Source of the DNA: Prevotella sp.
GTDB taxonomy: Bacteria; Bacteroidota; Bacteroidia; Bacteroidales; Bacteroidaceae
Direction of reading: 5' to 3'
NCBI GenBank assembly: GCA_017651265.1
Contig: JAGCDO010000029.1
Location: forward strand, 1-64,000
DNA length: 64,000 bases
Shown: positions 1 through 49,046 of the stretch, in pieces
How the letters are laid out: every line of letters starts with the position of its first letter
How positions within the stretch are numbered: position 1 is the first letter of the stretch
Notes under the pieces: model-generated
What the model saw: the letters and a program-made list of their open reading frames with translations, nothing else
The model's database searches: none
What the model was told of the DNA's origin: nothing
Position numbers and translations under genes: made by a program

Positions 1-31
1 ACCCTTTGTTTATCGGTGTTTCAAGAGTTTT

Positions 32-42
32 ATGTTAGGTCT
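32..42 (+). repeat. Single ATGTTAGGTCT box
   Basis: An 11-bp ATGTTAGGTCT box identical to those around the VapE-like gene at 43806-45433. Read on the minus strand it follows the palindrome pair at 136-172 by 93 bp. This is the same order as upstream of the VapE-like gene (palindromes, then an AGACCTAACAT box), but pointing left out of the window. Confidence 0.7.
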
Positions 43-135
43 TGGGAAAAACACAAAAATTCTTTCATTTTGTGGAGCCGAATTACATATTCGCCGGAAC
101 ACAGTGAAGATAGTTTCTTGTCATAATACAATTTG

Positions 136-35305: not shown

Positions 35306-35329
35306 TCGTCACAAAAAGTTGCAATTCAT
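35301..35329 (+). promoter_or_regulatory. Second candidate LytTR-regulator binding site
   Basis: ACCATTCGT followed 20 bp later by GCAATTCAT. This matches the site at 26120-26148 in spacing and in flanking bases (TCGTCAC, then TCCCAGA 23 bp on in both). It lies upstream of a weak TATGCTTG -7 element at 35359-35366 for the receptor gene. Confidence 0.5.
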
Positions 35330-35405
35330 CCCAGAAATGGGGTGGATTGCATCTTTTTTATGCTTGTGTGGCATCAAACTGGCAAAACATTTAATAATTA
35401 GTAAA

Positions 35406-37775
35406 ATGAAAAAGATCAGTTTGAAAATGGTAGCTTTGATTGCTACAATGATGATGTGTTTAACAGCCGAGGCTATGACTGAGGATGTAGGTGGACGAGT
35501 AATTAACGAGCAGGGTGAGCCCTTGCCATTTGTAAGTGTGGCCCTGCTTACGGCCGACTCTACTTATATACAAGGTGCAACGAGCGATGTGGATGGATGT
35601 TTCCAGATTAACACAACTGACGCCTGCTGCATTCTGCGATTCTCGTGCATCGGTTACCGTATCAAGTATGTTGACGTAATGGGTTCGGAAATAGGAACCG
35701 TCCAGATGGAGCAAGATCAGACAATGCTGAATGAGATCGTGGTGAAGGGCCAGATGCCTAAAACCAAACTGACAGGCAACTCGATGATTACCACCATTCA
35801 AGGTACCGTCTTAGGCCATTCGGGTACTGCTAAGGAAATGCTGGCCAAGGTACCAGGAATGACGTTGAAGGGCGAAGAACTCGAAGTGCTGGGCAAAGGC
35901 ACACCTGTCGTCTATATCAATGGTCGCAAGATGCAGGATAAGGACGAACTGAAACGACTGCGTTCGGAGGAGATTCAGAGCGTAGAGGTGATTACCAATC
36001 CTGGTGCGCAGTACGATGCAACCATTTCGGCAGTGGTACGTATCAAGACCGTTCGCCGTGAGGGAACTGGTTTCGGCTTCGACTTGATGGCTGCTAACAA
36101 CCAGGATCTGGCGTTTGGCTTCAGTGACCCCAGCACCACACTGAACCTGCGTTATCGCCACAACAACCTGGACCTATTTGGTATGGTGAACTATTGGACG
36201 TGGGATAGTCCTAACGACCTGCATATTACGCAATCTACATTTCTCCAGGCCGATGAAGGTATCAGGAATATTCTTCAGAACAGCCACATGCGTAACGACT
36301 GGCACGGAGAGGGCCTGAACTACAACCTGGGCTTTAACTGGCAGATTAACGACAAGCACTCGTTGGGTGCCAGAGTGGAGCGCCACAACCAGTTTAAAAC
36401 GTATAATGACATGTGGGTGGATACTGAAAACAATCTCACAGGCCGCGACCTTTCGCATCAGGGTGGTCATACACGCTACCCCTATAACTGGCAAGGCAAT
36501 GCCTATTATAACGGTCAGGTGGGTAAACTGAACATCGACCTAAATGTGGATTTCCTGACGGATAAGGAGAATGACGATAACCAGATAAATGTGTATTTGC
36601 CAGAAACCCAGACCATGCAACAGAACTCGCATATATGGTCGCGACTCTGGGCTACCAAACTGGTGCTGAGTTATCCTGTATGGAAAGGACAGTTACAGAC
36701 AGGATCAGAGATGAGTTTTGTAAAGCGTCAGAGCAGTACGTCGATTACCAACTATCCTCTCCCCTCTACTGATATGGATGTAGAGGAGAACAACGTGGCT
36801 GCCTTTGCGGTTTATAATGCCAACTTGGAGAAATATGGAACTGTAAGCGCCGGACTGCGTTACGAGCATGTAGGTTTCGACTATATGGACAACCTGGATG
36901 CCGAGAACAATATAGCGCGCTATCAGGACGAGTTTTTCCCCAATATCACATGGTCAAAGCAGTTTGGAGCCATCCAGACCTCGCTGAGTTATACCATGAA
37001 AACCGTGCGTCCTAACTACAGCGTACTAAGCGACCATATTTACTATATGAACTCGTTTACCCTATCGCAGGGCGACTCGAAACTAAAGAATGCTATCATG
37101 CAGGAGGTGAGCATCAATGCCCGTTGGAAGTGGATCAACCTGTTTGCTGCTTACGAACGTCGCGATAACACCATTACACAGGTACCGATGGCCTATAACA
37201 ACGAGGGTATCATGCTGCTGAAGCAGGCCAATCTACCTGATCCCGTTCGCAATCTGGCCATCTTCCTTTCGGCTAATCCTACTTGGGGCGTATATAGCCC
37301 AAGCTGGACGATTGGCGGACAGAAGTTCTGGAATACGATGACATTCGACGATCCCCGGAGTGCCACAGGAAAGACGGATGTCGTCTTCACCAAGCCCATC
37401 TTCTTCTTCGACCTGAACAACACCTTCCGATTTAAGCACAGCTGGCAGTTGGAGGCCAATGCCAACATCCAGACCAAGGGTGATGTACTGAACTACCGTA
37501 TTCTCTCGCCCTCATACGACATCCGTTTTGTGGTACAGAAGTGCTGGCTGAAGAACGATGCCCTGTGCCTGCGTGCCAGCATCAGCGATGTGTTCCAGCG
37601 TAGCGTACAGGATATGGCTCATGATTGTGGTTTCTTCTATACTGTGCAGAAATCACGAAGCCGTAGCCACCGTTTGGATATCTCTATCCGCTACACCTTC
37701 AACGCCCAGAAGAGCAAGTATAAGGGCACTGGTGCTGGTAAAGCCGAACAGGAGCGTATGAACAACAGCAATTAG
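35406..37775 (+). CDS. Outer-membrane beta-barrel family (TonB-dependent-receptor-like) protein
   Basis: A 789-aa paralogue of the 26811-29201 product: signal peptide (1-20), regulatory-like domain (EDVGGRVINEQGEPLPFVSVALL), plug-like segment (EVLGKGTPVVYINGRKMQD) and barrel. ATG 35406 gives a normal signal peptide; the open frame upstream from 35319 does not. The last 420 bp (37341-37760) recur, about 93% identical by eye, at 41034-41456. It may be controlled by the LytTR regulator at 25054. Confidence 0.83.
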   Translation: MKKISLKMVALIATMMMCLTAEAMTEDVGGRVINEQGEPLPFVSVALLTADSTYIQGATSDVDGCFQINTTDACCILRFSCIGYRIKYVDVMGSEIGTVQMEQDQTMLNEIVVKGQMPKTKLTGNSMITTIQGTVLGHSGTAKEMLAKVPGMTLKGEELEVLGKGTPVVYINGRKMQDKDELKRLRSEEIQSVEVITNPGAQYDATISAVVRIKTVRREGTGFGFDLMAANNQDLAFGFSDPSTTLNLRYRHNNLDLFGMVNYWTWDSPNDLHITQSTFLQADEGIRNILQNSHMRNDWHGEGLNYNLGFNWQINDKHSLGARVERHNQFKTYNDMWVDTENNLTGRDLSHQGGHTRYPYNWQGNAYYNGQVGKLNIDLNVDFLTDKENDDNQINVYLPETQTMQQNSHIWSRLWATKLVLSYPVWKGQLQTGSEMSFVKRQSSTSITNYPLPSTDMDVEENNVAAFAVYNANLEKYGTVSAGLRYEHVGFDYMDNLDAENNIARYQDEFFPNITWSKQFGAIQTSLSYTMKTVRPNYSVLSDHIYYMNSFTLSQGDSKLKNAIMQEVSINARWKWINLFAAYERRDNTITQVPMAYNNEGIMLLKQANLPDPVRNLAIFLSANPTWGVYSPSWTIGGQKFWNTMTFDDPRSATGKTDVVFTKPIFFFDLNNTFRFKHSWQLEANANIQTKGDVLNYRILSPSYDIRFVVQKCWLKNDALCLRASISDVFQRSVQDMAHDCGFFYTVQKSRSRSHRLDISIRYTFNAQKSKYKGTGAGKAEQERMNNSN

Positions 37776-41033: not shown

Positions 41034-41456
41034 ACATTCGACAATCCTCGTAGCGCCACAGGCAAGACGGATGTGACCTTCACCAAGCCCATCTTCTTCT
41101 TCGACCTGAACAACACCTTCCGCTTTAAGCACAGCTGGCAGTTGGAAGCTAACGCTAACATTCAGACCAAGGGTGATGTACTGAACTACCGTATTCTCTC
41201 GCCTTCATACAACCTTGGTTTTGTGGTACAGAAATGCTGGCTGAAGAACGATGCCCTGTGCCTGCGTGCCAGCATCAGCGATGTGTTCCAGCGTAGCGTA
41301 CAGGATATGGCTCATGATTGTGGCTTCTTCTACACTGTACAGAAAACACGAAGCCGTAACCACCGTTTGGATATCTCTATCCGCTACACCTTCAACGCTC
41401 AGAAGAGCAAATATAAGGGAACAGGTGCAGGGCAGGCAGAGCGTCAGCGAATGTAG
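41034..41456 (+). pseudogene. Duplicated 3' fragment of the receptor gene
   Basis: A 423-bp stretch that copies 37341-37760, including a run of over 80 identical bases, and encodes the last 140 or so residues of the barrel (TFDNPRSATGKTDVTFTKP to the C-terminus). It has no signal peptide or receptor N-terminus, so it cannot make a working barrel. It marks the site of a tandem duplication or a former second receptor gene. Confidence 0.85.
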
Positions 41457-42380: not shown

Positions 42381-43601
42381 ATGCAGGAGATTTGGGCGCT
42401 AATCAATCAGATGTCGCCGTATCTGCTTCTGGGATTCGGCTTCGCAGGACTGCTGCACGCTTTTGTGCCGGCAGTGCTCTATCGGCGTTATCTGGGAGGA
42501 AATGATTTCCGGTCGGTATTGTGGGCTGCGATGATTGGTGTACCGCTGCCGCTTTGTTCTTGCGGCGTGATTCCCACGGCCATGTCTTTACGCAAGGAGG
42601 GGGCTTCGAAGGGGGCTACCACCTCGTTTCTGATCGCTACACCGCAAACAGGCGTGGATTCCATTCTTGCCACAGCCTCATTACTTGGTGTTCCCTTTGC
42701 CATCCTCCGACCAGTGGCCGCGCTGGTTACTTCCCTCGTGGGGGGTGAGATGGTGAATATGGCAAACCGCCATCAACCGTCGGAAAACATGACTCAGCAG
42801 ACGGAGCAGCCAACAGAAAAGCTGTCATTCGGTCAACGACTGCTGGTTGCCTTGCGCTATGGCTATGTGGATATGGTGCAGGATATCGGGCGCTGGCTTG
42901 TGATGGGACTCATTATTGCAGCGCTGATTACGGTTCTTGTACCTGATGATTTCTTCCTGCGCTTTGCCGATACACCAATAATCGGGATGCTCTTGATGAT
43001 TGCCATCTCCATACCGATGTATGTATGCGCCACAGGATCTATTCCCATTGCCGTTGCTTTGATGCTCAAGGGAATCACTCCAGGAGCGGCTCTCGTGCTA
43101 CTCATGGCTGGTCCGGCTTGTAACATGGCTTCCATATTGGTCATCCGTAAGGTACTGGGCAAGAGAACCCTATGGCTCTACCTGCTCTCCATCACACTTG
43201 GGGCCATCGTGTTCGGCTTGGGTATCGACTACCTGTTGCCGCGGGAATGGTTTACCTCGCACTTGACGCAATCGCACGCCTGCTGTCATGAGGCGCCTGC
43301 ATTCTTCAATGTCGTATGCAGCATCGTGCTCGGCGCCTTACTTGTGTATGCGCTCATCAAACGCTTGATACCTACTAAAAACAATCATACAATGGAAAAA
43401 AGACTATTCAAAGTGGAGGGCATGATGTGTAATCACTGTCGTGCCAATGTGGAGAAAGCGCTCCAGCAGTTGGAGGGCGTTACCAGCGTTGAAGTTGATC
43501 TTACAGCAGGAACTGCCGCGATAGAAGGTTCAGTGACCGACGAGGAAGTCATCAACTCGATTACCGGAATCGGTTATTCTGCCACCAAGTTGTCGAATTA
43601 A
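42381..43601 (+). CDS. SO_0444-type Cu/Zn efflux permease with C-terminal HMA domain
   Basis: A 406-aa permease with about nine membrane helices and the conserved PLPLCSCGVIPTA segment near residue 55 and GPACNMASILVI later. After a cytoplasmic linker it ends in an HMA domain (from about residue 338, VEGMMCNHCRANVEK). The DNA has an ATG at the HMA start, so a separate HMA product by internal initiation is possible. Predicted to export copper or zinc. Confidence 0.82.
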   Translation: MQEIWALINQMSPYLLLGFGFAGLLHAFVPAVLYRRYLGGNDFRSVLWAAMIGVPLPLCSCGVIPTAMSLRKEGASKGATTSFLIATPQTGVDSILATASLLGVPFAILRPVAALVTSLVGGEMVNMANRHQPSENMTQQTEQPTEKLSFGQRLLVALRYGYVDMVQDIGRWLVMGLIIAALITVLVPDDFFLRFADTPIIGMLLMIAISIPMYVCATGSIPIAVALMLKGITPGAALVLLMAGPACNMASILVIRKVLGKRTLWLYLLSITLGAIVFGLGIDYLLPREWFTSHLTQSHACCHEAPAFFNVVCSIVLGALLVYALIKRLIPTKNNHTMEKRLFKVEGMMCNHCRANVEKALQQLEGVTSVEVDLTAGTAAIEGSVTDEEVINSITGIGYSATKLSN

Positions 43602-43606
43602 GATTA

Positions 43607-43731
43607 TTCCCACGTTGGGAACACTTTATTCCCACGTTGGGAACACTTTATTCCCACGTTGGGAACATTTTATTCCCACGTTGGGAACACTTTATTCCCA
43701 TGCTGGGAACATTTTATTCCCAACGTGGGAA
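43607..43731. repeat. Six TTCCCACGTTGGGAA palindromes at 22-bp spacing
   Basis: Copies start at 43607, 43629, 43651, 43673, 43695 and 43717, exactly 22 bp apart, separated by 7-bp AT-rich spacers (cactttat, cattttat type). The first four are identical, the fifth has two changes, and the sixth is the same element in the opposite orientation. The array begins 5 bp after the permease stop and leads into an AT-rich stretch (43737-43860). Confidence 0.95.
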
Positions 43732-43805
43732 TATTTTTATCGACTTCTGTAAAATTTTGCTACAAATTTACTTCATAAATTTCTACAATTTTGCATCATT
43801 TCGAA

Positions 43806-43929
43806 AGACCTAACATTAAAAAAACTTAGTTGTTTGATTATGAGTAATTTAGCTTCAAAAACAGGTCTTAAAGACCTAACATAAGACCTAACATAAGACC
43901 TAACAAAGACCTAACATGACACCTAACAT
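43806..43929 (+). repeat. Upstream AGACCTAACAT boxes (one single, then five in tandem)
   Basis: A single box at 43806-43816, then five in a row at 43872-43882, 43884-43894, 43896-43906, 43907-43917 and 43919-43929 (period 11-12 bp, the last one degenerate). An overlapping near-palindrome AGGTCTTAAAGACCT is at 43863-43877. The boxes lie upstream of the VapE-like promoter. Mirror copies follow the gene. Confidence 0.93.
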
Positions 43930-43991
43930 TTTGATCTAGTAAAAGTTTTCGGTTTGTTTTACAAAATAATCATCATTTTCCCAGCTAAAAA

Positions 43992-44023
43992 TTTGGAAAT
44001 CGCGCAAAAATTTTGTACCTTTG
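43992..44023 (+). promoter_or_regulatory. Promoter of the VapE-like gene
   Basis: TTTG (43992-43995), 20-bp spacer, TACCTTTG (44016-44023), 62 bp after the last CCTAACAT box and 28 bp before ATG 44052. Confidence 0.8.
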
Positions 44024-44051
44024 CACTGCGAAATTTGAAAGGCTCGACGCT

Positions 44052-45305
44052 ATGAGAAACACCCATATGCCAATCCCGCCTAAACTTAATAATCTTTATT
44101 CAATGACCCAAAAAACAATGATCAATGGAGAACCTATGTCTCCTCTCTTGGAGACAACGCTCGTAGTTGAGCAGTTCCTCAATGAAAACTACTGTTTCCG
44201 TCGCAATGTGCTGAACGGGAAGGTAGAGTTTGCAACCCATCCTGATTCGCTAACCTGGCGCCCGCTGACTCAAGAGGCGATCAACAGCATCATCCGTCGT
44301 GCCAAGAAGGAGCAGGTATGCGAAAAAGGTAGTCCGAAGACGGAAATCATGGAGTTCGTTTACTCTGAGGATGTACCTGTGTATAACCCTGTTGGCGACT
44401 ACCTGAAACAACTGCCCCAATGGGACGGAAAGAACCATATCGCACAGCTGTTCAGTCGTCTGCCCGGCATTACTTCAGAGCAACAGGGCTATCTTTCCAC
44501 CTGGCTGTTGTCTGCTGTGGCGCACTGGCTTCAGATGGATACCCTTCATGGTAATGAGTGTGTACCTACCTTGATTGGTGCTCAGGGATGTGGTAAGACT
44601 ACCTTCTTCCACCGACTGCTGCCTGCCGATTTACGGGAATACTATCTTGACCATCTGAACCTGTCGAACAAGTTCGATAAGGAAATGGCTCTGACGAACA
44701 ATCTCTTGGTGAACCTGGATGAGCTGGATGCCATTCGTCCCAGTCAGCATGCTGCCTTGAAGCAGACGCTCTCGAAGAGTAAGGTGAACGGCCGACCTAT
44801 CTATGGGGCCTCACAAGAAGATCGTCCGCGTTTCGCCTCATTCGTGGCAACGACTAACAATCCTCATCCGCTGACTGATCCCACAGGTAGTCGTCGATAT
44901 ATCTGTCTGCAGATTCCCGAAGGTCAGTATATTGACAATACGGGTGAGATTGATTATGGACAACTGTATGCGCAGGTGGTGTATGAACTGACAGTGGCAA
45001 AGACGCCTTATTGGTTCACGAATGATGAAGTGGCACGCATTCAGCAGATGAACCATAATTATATGCATCAGAAAGATATCGGAGAGATGGTTGAAATATG
45101 CTTCCGCAAGCCCAAGGAGGGCGAGGTTGCTAAGCTGATGAACACGAAGATGCTGCTGAGTCACATCCAGAAGGAATACCCTTCAGTGGATATCAATCAT
45201 GGTAACAAGATCCGTGTAGGGCATGTCATGACTACCCTCGGCTATGAGTCGTCAGATCATAGCAATGTACCCTTCTATAAAGTCATCCCTTTACGGGCTG
45301 CATAA
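44052..45305 (+). CDS. VapE-like superfamily 3 helicase / ATPase
   Basis: A 417-aa protein of the virulence-associated E family, the helicase partner found in phage satellites, islands and plasmids. Walker A GAQGCGKTTFF, Walker B NLLVNLDELD, a sensor segment SFVATTNNPHPL and Arg-finger TGSRRYICLQ are intact. The C-terminal region (about 330-417) resembles DUF3874. No primase domain is fused, unlike many VapE proteins. ATG 44052 is chosen because it follows a perfect promoter; the open frame extends upstream to TTG 44013 inside the -7 region. No integrase, capsid or primase gene lies nearby. Confidence 0.82.
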   Translation: MRNTHMPIPPKLNNLYSMTQKTMINGEPMSPLLETTLVVEQFLNENYCFRRNVLNGKVEFATHPDSLTWRPLTQEAINSIIRRAKKEQVCEKGSPKTEIMEFVYSEDVPVYNPVGDYLKQLPQWDGKNHIAQLFSRLPGITSEQQGYLSTWLLSAVAHWLQMDTLHGNECVPTLIGAQGCGKTTFFHRLLPADLREYYLDHLNLSNKFDKEMALTNNLLVNLDELDAIRPSQHAALKQTLSKSKVNGRPIYGASQEDRPRFASFVATTNNPHPLTDPTGSRRYICLQIPEGQYIDNTGEIDYGQLYAQVVYELTVAKTPYWFTNDEVARIQQMNHNYMHQKDIGEMVEICFRKPKEGEVAKLMNTKMLLSHIQKEYPSVDINHGNKIRVGHVMTTLGYESSDHSNVPFYKVIPLRAA

Positions 45306-45311
45306 ACTAAA

Positions 45312-45433
45312 ATGTTAGGTCTTATGTTACCTTTTTGTTAGGTTTATGTTAGGTTTTTGTTAGGTGTTTAAAGTATACTATTTAAGTTAACGCATTTAAA
45401 TTCAATAAGTTATCAAAATTCAATGTTAGGTCT
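45312..45433 (+). repeat. Downstream ATGTTAGGTCT boxes, inverted relative to the upstream set
   Basis: Boxes at 45312-45322, 45324-45332 (degenerate ATGTTACCT), 45335-45345, 45346-45356 and 45357-45367, then a single one at 45423-45433. Five clustered plus one single mirror the upstream set (single plus five), so the VapE-like gene lies between inverted arrays. The last box overlaps the start region of the DUF6078 gene. Confidence 0.92.
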
Positions 45434-45434
45434 T

Positions 45435-45872
45435 ATGGAAAAACAACTAAAATTAGAAAATATCCCTAATGGATATGAACTTTGTTTCAATAACAACTGT
45501 CAGCAGTGCGAACGGTGCATGCATTATCAAGCTTATCGGCTTCAACCCGAAGTGCGACTTCATGGTCCTGCCATCTACCCGGCAGCATGGGCAAGTGGTC
45601 AATGCCAGCATTTCCGCGATACGAAGCCTGTACAGAAAGCCTGGGGTTTCAGTCAGCTTTACAAGAATGTGCCCCGCCACCTGAAGGCAGAAGCCCGCGA
45701 ATGTGTGATGAACTACTTCAGTAGTGGTTGTGGTCCTTATTACCGGTATCATCATGGCGAGAATCTGCTCTCACCCCGTCAGCAGGAAGACATCATGGCT
45801 ATTCTGTCACATTTCGGCAGTACCGATGATCTGACTTTCGATCATTATGTCACCGACTTCGACTTCAGTTGA
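45435..45872 (+). CDS. DUF6078 family protein
   Basis: A 145-aa protein with an N-terminal cysteine cluster (CFNNNCQQCERCMHY, residues about 16-30) that may bind zinc, then a helical region (QLYKNVPRHLKAEARECVMNYFSS). I recall DUF6078 as a Bacteroidota family of unknown function, often near VapE-like genes. ATG 45435 is preferred to 45423, which lies in the repeat box. No promoter of its own is visible, so it may be read from the VapE promoter through the array. Confidence 0.7.
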   Translation: MEKQLKLENIPNGYELCFNNNCQQCERCMHYQAYRLQPEVRLHGPAIYPAAWASGQCQHFRDTKPVQKAWGFSQLYKNVPRHLKAEARECVMNYFSSGCGPYYRYHHGENLLSPRQQEDIMAILSHFGSTDDLTFDHYVTDFDFS

Positions 45873-45929
45873 ACGTCAACGTCACCACTTATAAAGTACT
45901 TGGAAGGTGAAAAGTTTAGATCATAGTCT

Positions 45930-45957
45930 GAAAGATGTGGCGTGAGCCGCATCTTTC
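45930..45957 (+). terminator. Hairpin after the DUF6078 gene
   Basis: A 12-bp stem (GAAAGATGTGGC paired with GCCGCATCTTTC, one G-U pair) and a GTGA loop; short T run after. The rest of 45873-46120 shows only the RhuM-like promoter. Confidence 0.65.
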
Positions 45958-46120
45958 ATTGTAATTGGCATTATAACTAATCTTATTCCGAATTGGTGTG
46001 TCACTTGAAATGTCGGTTGAACCAAAATTAGCTATACATTTTTATATTTACGGAAGATTTAGTATATTTGCAGCAAAATACATTAATAATATAGGCTTTC
46101 AATTTAAATAATATAGAAAG

Positions 46121-46480
46121 ATGTCTGCCAATAAATCATTATCAATGCAAGATAACGAGATTGTACTCTATCAGCCAAATGATGCCATCCATCTTGAGGT
46201 AAGAATGGCGAACGAATCCGTGTGGCTTACGCAGCAGCAGATTGCCATCTTATTCGGAGTTAAGCAGCCTGCCATCTCTAAACATCTGAACAACATTTTC
46301 AAGAGTGGAGAGTTAGATGAAGCATCAGTTTATTCCATTTTGGAATATACTGCCACTGATGGCAAAATCTACAAGACCAAATTCTATAATCTTGATGCAA
46401 TCCTCTCCGTGGGCTATCGTGTTAATAGCATCAATGCTACCATGTTTCGCAAGTGGGCAAACGTTGGTTCGTCATCATGA
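46121..46480 (+). pseudogene. Truncated RhuM-family protein
   Basis: 119 residues matching the first third of RhuM-family proteins (full length about 330 aa): QDNEIVLYQPNDAIHLEVRMANESVWLTQQQIAILFGVKQPAISKHLNNIFKSGEL, a helix-turn-helix-like region. The usual FRIWANRVLKDYL is replaced by FRKWANVGSSS and a stop. 46481-46640 holds no recognisable continuation. Probably a decayed gene; a TATATTTG -7 element is at 46063-46070. Confidence 0.75.
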
Positions 46481-48895: not shown

Positions 48896-48917
48896 GTGCT
48901 TTTAGTACTTCTCACAA

Positions 48918-49041
48918 AAAAAAGACATTGCCTTTCGGCGATGTCTCTTTTAAGTCCTCTCACAAAAAAGACATTGCCTTTCGGCGATGTCTCTTTTAAG
49001 TCCTCTCACAAAAAAGACATTGCCTTTCGGCGATGTCTCTT
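48918..49041. repeat. Three tandem 46-bp copies of a terminator-like hairpin
   Basis: The unit, with GACATTGCC at 48924, 48970 and 49016, forms AAAGACATTGCC / GGCGATGTCTCTTT hairpins separated by aagtcctctcac. The third copy runs up to the 3' end of tRNA-His. Read on the minus strand each has the shape of a terminator for the tRNA and secG operon. Confidence 0.85.
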
Positions 49042-49046
49042 TCGAG

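Follow-up and report, generated by a model that had tools for sequence, protein, structure and literature searches.

The stretch of DNA analysed here, called the window, comprises the first 64 kb (64,000 nucleotides) of a 137-kb contig in a draft genome of the Prevotella group (3.16 Mb), and contains a helicase gene of the VapE type between two inverted sets of an 11-bp box (Table 1). The sequence-only reading had described these sets as mirror images, with one box and then five upstream and five and then one, inverted, downstream, and direct reading, a box scan, and Tandem Repeats Finder bear this out. The boxes of the left array start at 43872, 43884, 43896, 43907, and 43919, in steps of 11–12 bp and all on the forward strand, and those of the right array at 45312, 45324, 45335, 45346, and 45357, all on the reverse strand, the box at 45324 being degenerate by eye (GGTAAC for CCTAAC). 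The window holds nine occurrences of the word CCTAACAT, where 1.63 would be expected, and 0 of 100 shuffles attain this count. The closest named loci (98–99% helicase identity) belong to Prevotella metagenome genomes, with rumen or other ruminant gut sources further down.

Table 1. Features of the vapE locus, and related elements in the same genome.
Feature	Position or locus	Strand	Basis
Arm of a further, gene-less element cut by the contig end (outer box 32–42)	1..65	-	Box scan
22-bp units with TTCCCANNNTGGGAA palindromes, left edge of the shared unit	43604..43731	.	Tandem repeat, 5.8 copies
Left outer (solitary) box AGACCTAACAT, 11 bp	43806..43816	+	Direct reading, box scan
A-type spacer of the left end, AT 0.76	43817..43871	+	Common to one end of dispersed elements
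Left array, five tandem boxes	43872..43929	+	Direct reading, box scan, Tandem Repeats Finder
Putative vapE promoter, Bacteroidota-type (TTTG, then TACCTTTG)	43992..44023	+	Sequence reading
VapE-like SF3/AAA+ helicase, 417 aa	44052..45305	+	Open ORF from ATG at 44052, profile search
Right array, five tandem boxes, inverse orientation	45312..45367	-	Direct reading, box scan, Tandem Repeats Finder
Spacer of the right end, AT 0.82	45368..45422	-	Composition
Right outer (solitary) box	45423..45433	-	Direct reading, box scan
DUF6078 protein, 145 aa, conserved Cys residues	45435..45872	+	PF19555, 3.9e-34
Hairpin GAAAGATGTGGCGTGAGCCGCATCTTTC, right edge of the shared unit	45930..45957	+	L087 homology stops just after
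Two-armed gene-less elements	L031, L032, L034, L035, L036, L038, L039, L041, L042, L043, L045, L046		Box scan

VapE-type genes are known chiefly from phages, satellites, and other mobile DNA. The present one is an intact SF3-type helicase gene, as had been proposed, its product matching PF05272 (VapE-like, 2.9e-37) and PF19263, and these profile matches together with the box arrays also sustain the earlier description of an initiator-type ATPase accompanied by iteron-like boxes. A profile of the protein finds the solved VapE-type protein 7pds (6e-13). The C-terminal domain, at about residues 340–417, is DUF3874-like, the score for the C-terminal family PF12990 (27) lying below the cut-off of 28.3. 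Among 16 homologues, the residues that we take to be Walker A, Walker B, sensor, and the GSRR arginine finger are invariant, and the last 75 residues are more variable than the rest; over 61 loci, the mean distance is 0.475 for the C-terminus and 0.177 for the core. The gene is under strong purifying selection, with dN 0.005, dS 0.17, and dN/dS about 0.03 against the copy in locus L087 (Prevotella sp. Tb.RUG.501). Scans with Pfam, NCBIfam, PADLOC, and PHROGs found no nuclease domain and no known transposase family in VapE or in the adjoining DUF6078 protein. The promoter listed in Table 1 was called on what we presume to be the Bacteroidota consensus.

By comparison with L087, where it is ~95% identical, the unit that contains these features extends over about 43604–45960. 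The homology starts inside the array of palindromes at its left edge, which holds six of the eight TTCCCANNNTGGGAA palindromes of the window, and the hairpin at its right edge is, by eye, a probable terminator. The unit contains only vapE and the DUF6078 gene, in agreement with the claim that no integrase or primase is present. The neighbours examined are ordinary chromosomal genes: to the left, an ArsP-type permease that carries an HMA domain, and to the right, a RhuM-family fragment together with a flavin reductase; the RhuM-family (PF13310) ORF, at 46121–46480, matches the start of the profile only. An Rfam scan of the window found tRNA and no other RNA family. Elsewhere in the window, 2.9 near-identical tandem units of 46 bp, hairpin-like by eye, adjoin a tRNA-His gene (48911–49042), and the end of an OMP beta-barrel gene (35319–37775) recurs, by eye, as a short fragment ~3.3 kb downstream (41073–41456).

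Tandem palindromes of the TTCCCANNNTGGGAA type, ~22 bp apart, adjoin many of the elements described below: in the window at 43604–43731 and 136–172, and also beside L031, L032, L035, L036, L039, L041–L043, L045, and L046. Palindromes of the kind AGTCCG..CGGACT occupy a similar place in relatives. These palindromes could represent a second repeat that is particular to the species, or else a neighbourhood that the elements prefer.

Distribution of the Helicase and Conservation of the Ends

In a protein search at E ≤ 1e-60, relatives of VapE were found in 70 of 150 genomes of the same genus, the window's own included, a figure that takes in proteins of only 34–41% identity, many of them longer. 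At E ≤ 1e-85, the sole match among 393 genomes of the order (206 genera) is the window's own genome, a result that bears on other genera, since this sample lists only two further genomes of the same genus. Moreover, the best 80 of 379 named loci are all labelled Prevotella, Prevotellaceae, Bacteroidaceae, or Bacteroidales, and one of the genomes listed, the complete sequence of P. communis E15-14, carries two helicase elements. Thus, the close VapE subfamily looks confined to the Prevotella group.

Flanks sufficient for an array test were available in 74 of these 80 loci, and a locus passed when each of its sides held the best 9-mer three times or more, in mirror orientation. Inverted arrays flank the helicase in 61 of the 74 loci and 13 fail, so that the search for boxes around orthologous genes, which had been suggested as a check, turned out positive; in a control on far flanks, possible in 54 of the 74 loci, the weaker side never held more than two. 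Long inverted repeats with a score above 60 are present in 51 of 72 loci, the maximum among shuffles (one per locus) being 29, and thus surround one gene in the manner of an insertion sequence. The best-preserved ends consist of an outer box, a spacer with a palindrome of the kind CCTTT..AAAGG, an inverted box, and then several tandem boxes. When ends were folded as single-stranded DNA, those of L133, L156, and L117 gave z values of -6.0, -4.3, and -3.6 against shuffles, whereas the left end of the window and one B-type end of the CCTAACA group fold no better than shuffles (z -0.4 and 0.3). Hairpins were therefore rejected as a universal feature of the ends, as three canonical ends fold well and the two CCTAACA ends tried do not.

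Gene-Less Copies in the Same Genome

Across the 3.16-Mb genome, the exact word GACCTAACAT occurs 42 times and the reversed word twice, which counters a purely local regulatory array as an account of the boxes. The same genome carries 12 two-armed elements of about 230–350 bp without the gene (Table 1), of which all except L043 have an outer box at either end and three or more boxes in each arm (up to two mismatches allowed). One-armed remains are represented by L040 and by the first bases of the window, and a few solitary boxes are found elsewhere in the genome (e.g., L033 and L044). Ten of the 12 elements overlap no ORF of at least 80 aa, and two overlap a short ORF by 48–58 bases.

By eye, the gene-less elements typically have an A-type spacer at one end and a B-type spacer at the other, and ~20 further bases beyond the outer box are common to many of their ends. 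The B-type spacer as such was absent from the 80 helicase loci at up to four mismatches; again by eye, left ends (e.g., L092) contain its core and right ends are similar to the A type. Because these spacer types resemble the ends of the helicase element, the gene-less elements look like that element with a short centre in place of the gene. This centre measures 9–104 bp in the 11 copies measured, with an AT content of 0.49–0.67 (0.51 in the window). Thus, short dispersed copies without the gene carry the ends of a larger element, as MITEs do. The B-type ends often adjoin a further dispersed repeat (around GCGAAGCTGGGGTGGGG), in a way that resembles a nesting of elements within repeats; this is the case for L036, L038, L045, L046, L212, L214, L215, L220, L224, and L228.

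Box Words and Their Cognate Helicases

The box word differs from clade to clade. Over 61 loci, box distance correlates with the distance of the C-terminal part of VapE (0.44), of the core (0.35), and of the N-terminal part (0.26). The partial correlation of C-terminus and box given the core is 0.31, reached in 0 of 500 permutations, which is not a strict probability because the permutations do not keep phylogeny; that of core and box given the C-terminus is 0.11. Such covariation is what a box-reading C-terminal domain would give, as a correlation and not as binding. Box reading by the C-terminus is reported for SaPI Rep and Cch2 in the available part of PMC7581432.

The exact word GACCTAACAT was also counted in 12 chosen genomes, and occurs 57, 32, 18, and 14 times in G203, G118, G061, and G162. 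Genomes G020, G074, G136, G112, and G155 hold 6, 5, 3, 1, and 2 boxes despite near helicases (79–85% identity), and G106, G033, and G025, whose best helicase is 66–69% identical and has another box, hold 1, 0, and 1. Over 60 genomes, the window's own has 42 boxes and the next one 7. A second test looked for two CCTCACT boxes 2–5 bp apart in 15 genomes reached through 16 loci, seven of them, the cognate genomes, picked for a CCTCACT-type box in the helicase flank. The pattern matches six of these seven, against none of the eight genomes with other boxes. Arrays away from the helicase's own ends occur in four of the seven, with two-armed loci in G425 (C21, C22), G426 (C78, C122), G428 (C42), and G430 (C2, C5, C24) and one-armed loci in G425 (C36, C38) and G430 (C35); G424 and G427 have pairs at the helicase's own ends only, and G429 gave no match. 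No helicase was found in the dispersed CCTCACT loci that were retrieved. Dispersed copies thus accompany the cognate helicase, though not in every genome with a near helicase.

The DUF6078 Partner Gene

The right outer box ends one base before the start of the DUF6078 gene, so that the interval 43806–45433 stops just short of a gene that belongs to the unit common with L087. The inverted ends may therefore not be the borders of transfer, since DUF6078 lies outside the right end and yet in the shared unit. In a two-round profile search, a DUF6078 gene adjoins vapE on the same strand in 45 of the 80 loci, just downstream in 39 and upstream in six; of the 35 loci without it, five have less than 400 bp of downstream sequence. 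The downstream partners are as low as 22% identical to that of the window, which makes the link between vapE and DUF6078 an old one. All six loci with an upstream gene (L125, L134, L138, L146, L149, and L164) are among the 13 that fail the array test, and L125, L146, L149, and L164 also have no inverted repeat above shuffle level; this last group of helicases is possibly an ancestral or immobile form. The DUF6078 protein gave no relative of solved structure below E 0.9 and no match to defence, phage, or NCBI families, and no paper on it was found in the open-licence literature, which is weak evidence of absence. Its adjacency to vapE and their transfer together make it a candidate helper.

Evidence on Movement

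Movement of the element is supported, not proven, by comparisons among related sequences. In the window's genome, two copies of the helicase with a different type of box (C24 and C47, of which only the right halves are in the assembly) are 88% identical over 802 aligned bases; the match stops within 3 bp of the outer box and the flanks then differ. The L087 unit lies between an AcrB-family gene and a putative cas9 gene, just upstream of an ORF start, from about 5050, that we take from its first residues to be cas9. The L087 locus apparently belongs to the same genome as G118 (G118 and G224 give identical matches). Genome G118 keeps the left-flank gene of the window at 95%. Behind this gene stands one TTCCCACGTTGGGAA palindrome, the 1.2 kb that come after it contain no helicase, and the sequence past this site does not match the right flank of the window. 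Genome G203 carries the element at the window's left-flank gene. A gene-less element, L045, is complete in the window's genome (G000), one-armed in G203, and absent in G118. Moreover, 26 of 27 loci of the CCTAACA group, several of which have short flanks, show no match to the flanks of the window outside the unit at 1e-5 (blastn and tblastx), and L088 alone shares its left flank.

The search for empty sites had been proposed for 43600–45880, an interval close to the unit defined by comparison, but in genome sets with one genome per species no clean site with both flanks emerged: the joined flanks of the window's unit match one side only, in G118 and G203, and a search of 398 genomes with those of L117, L118, and, in part, L116 revealed nothing that spans the junction. 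In G292, an element of the L117 type occupies the corresponding position; its gene is partly missing, and the left flank differs. At the site of L034, G203 and G118 have no element, but the intergenic DNA there does not align, and in L182, where G000 has its counterpart of the left flank of L087, the sequence runs into the edge of the contig. Among 25 elements compared at fixed offsets, none of the many offsets reached a z of 3, and no target-site duplication was detected. At least six of the 12 gene-less copies are at the same place in a close relative; thus, many of them are old, and they are not spreading very actively at present.

Interpretation and Alternatives

We lean towards regarding the locus as an IS-like, MITE-forming element of Prevotella whose only conserved gene encodes VapE, an initiator helicase resembling the Rep of SaPI/PICI. 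Both ends are inverted repeats, in each of which an outer box is followed by a spacer or hairpin and then by a set of tandem boxes. VapE would assemble on the boxes of both ends, in opposite orientations, via its variable C-terminal domain, a loading on tandem boxes that is expected from the reports on SaPI/PICI origins, and could then open and replicate the DNA between and beside the ends. This activity would serve its own element in cis and the gene-less miniatures, which would be two ends back to back, in trans; ends recognized in both ways would explain why copies go with the helicase and why the box matches the C-terminus. Spread could perhaps occur through copying into chromosomal DNA that is broken or forked; alternatively, DUF6078 or an enzyme of the host might make the cuts by which copies reach new sites. 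DUF6078, beside the right end, may be a co-travelling partner in many clades. What the comparisons show is the build of the ends, its conservation in the family, the joint variation of box and C-terminus, the company of dispersed copies and cognate helicase, a boundary at the outer box, and the unit at different places in two close genomes; from there we infer that VapE binds the DNA and does the moving, that spread proceeds by replication, and what DUF6078 contributes. More tentatively, and with considerable doubt, the element could represent a class of transposon without a transposase, in which an initiator helicase on arrays at the ends multiplies the element and its miniatures by local re-replication, with integration by host repair or DUF6078.

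Set against the three options offered by the sequence-only reading (a minimal satellite replicon, a domesticated one, or an autoregulated locus), a mobile, IS-like unit fits best, and the symmetry that had been likened to the ends of such a unit is supported; an autoregulated locus leaves the dispersed copies unexplained. A wider network, domesticated or regulatory, in which VapE on dispersed arrays acts as a chromosome-wide regulator or auxiliary replication system kept for the host, is rather unlikely. It would account for the strong purifying selection on vapE (dN/dS about 0.03 against L087), for the intergenic position of the gene-less copies (10 of 12 free of ORFs of at least 80 aa), and for the at least six that are shared in place with close relatives. 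However, copy number varies widely among genomes with near helicases, three close genomes have the complete element, half of it, and none at one and the same site, and a pair of paralogues within one genome both stop at the outer box, beyond which their flanks differ. The repeats and miniatures could also owe their movement to an enzyme unrelated to VapE (e.g., a Y1/RAYT or DDE transposase) whose gene lies elsewhere, with vapE as a passenger. Family scans find no nuclease domain in VapE, the hairpins of three of the five folded ends (L133, L156, and L117) would suit Y1 enzymes, and an ORF that reads as a candidate Y1/RAYT-like gene adjoins element L162. Nevertheless, the latter is matched at 1e-5 only by itself and one ORF in L104 among the loci compared, the two CCTAACA-type ends tried fold no better than shuffles, the box word tracks VapE's own C-terminal domain, and the dispersed boxes track the cognate helicase; a passive role for vapE thus seems unlikely.

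A minimal satellite replicon had also been proposed; in the form considered here, with the unit 43604–45960 excising as a circle and replicating from iterons like a PICI with helper-dependent transfer, it is very improbable. Two iteron-like sets are indeed present, as described for PICI origins in the available part of PMC6092414, the helicase is related to the VapE-type protein 7pds, and the surroundings of the unit, itself about 95% identical, differ between two close genomes. On the other hand, genes for an integrase, an excisionase, or a primase are absent from the unit, its matches among plasmid and phage records all stay below 60% identity, and the seven viral contigs found match at 28–36%. 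Furthermore, the PICI origin lies 3' of the initiator gene according to the same part of PMC6092414, whereas two sets flank the gene here. Three features were unforeseen by the earlier note, namely, the clade-variable box word, the 12 gene-less copies, and DUF6078 beyond the right array.

In this locus, a replication-type helicase shows the build of a self-contained mobile element, together with a miniature family of its own. The element resembles PICI replicons, IS elements, and RAYT-REPINs but fits the definition of none of them, and its mechanism is a proposal; searches of the open-licence literature by title or topic found no paper on a VapE-box element, which is weak evidence of absence. 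Should the helicase be what moves the copies, this would be a way to spread DNA without a known recombinase, an idea that the many natural pairs of protein and box make directly testable. If true, satellite replication origins, REP-like repeats, and MITEs would be linked in one system, and DUF6078 would gain a context.

Comparison with Known Systems

The origins of SaPIs and PICIs have two iteron sets and an initiator helicase with a C-terminal reader, as described in the available parts of PMC6092414 and PMC7581432. The Prevotella element shares with their rep-ori regions a helicase and two short iteron sets beside the gene, the Rep-type initiator being recognized by sequence only (PF05272 and 7pds). 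In contrast, its box sets flank the gene as inverted ends rather than surrounding a 3' AT-rich region, the unit, with vapE and DUF6078 only, has no integrase, att sites, primase, repressor, interference, or packaging genes, and two-armed copies without the gene are dispersed in the chromosome. VapE proteins of the BT4734/BF3469 type, from Bacteroides and Prevotella, contain a related ATPase (about 30–41% identity) and are mostly longer, often about 700 aa; they also occur in the window's genome (C41 and C5), with no arrays of the CCTAACAT type beside these two copies.

RAYT/REPIN systems consist of one gene and many short two-armed chromosomal copies, and in this they resemble the Prevotella element. 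However, the latter has an SF3 helicase, with no match to Y1 (HUH) families in vapE or DUF6078, its boxes stand in tandem arrays at 11–12 bp, and its own genome holds several diverged helicase copies. REPINs are treated in the available part of PMC3116915. The BrickBuilt MITE of Porphyromonas gingivalis, present in 19 copies, is likewise a Bacteroidota MITE built on short tandem repeats and intergenic; in the available part of PMC4596501 it is described with 23-bp repeats in one block between leader and tail and with IS5-like ends, and no partner gene is named there. Insertion sequences differ in that the Prevotella element has no known transposase family and no target-site duplication at fixed offsets. 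The element nonetheless shares with insertion sequences and MITEs one gene between long inverted repeats, several paralogues per genome, and gene-less copies with the same ends.
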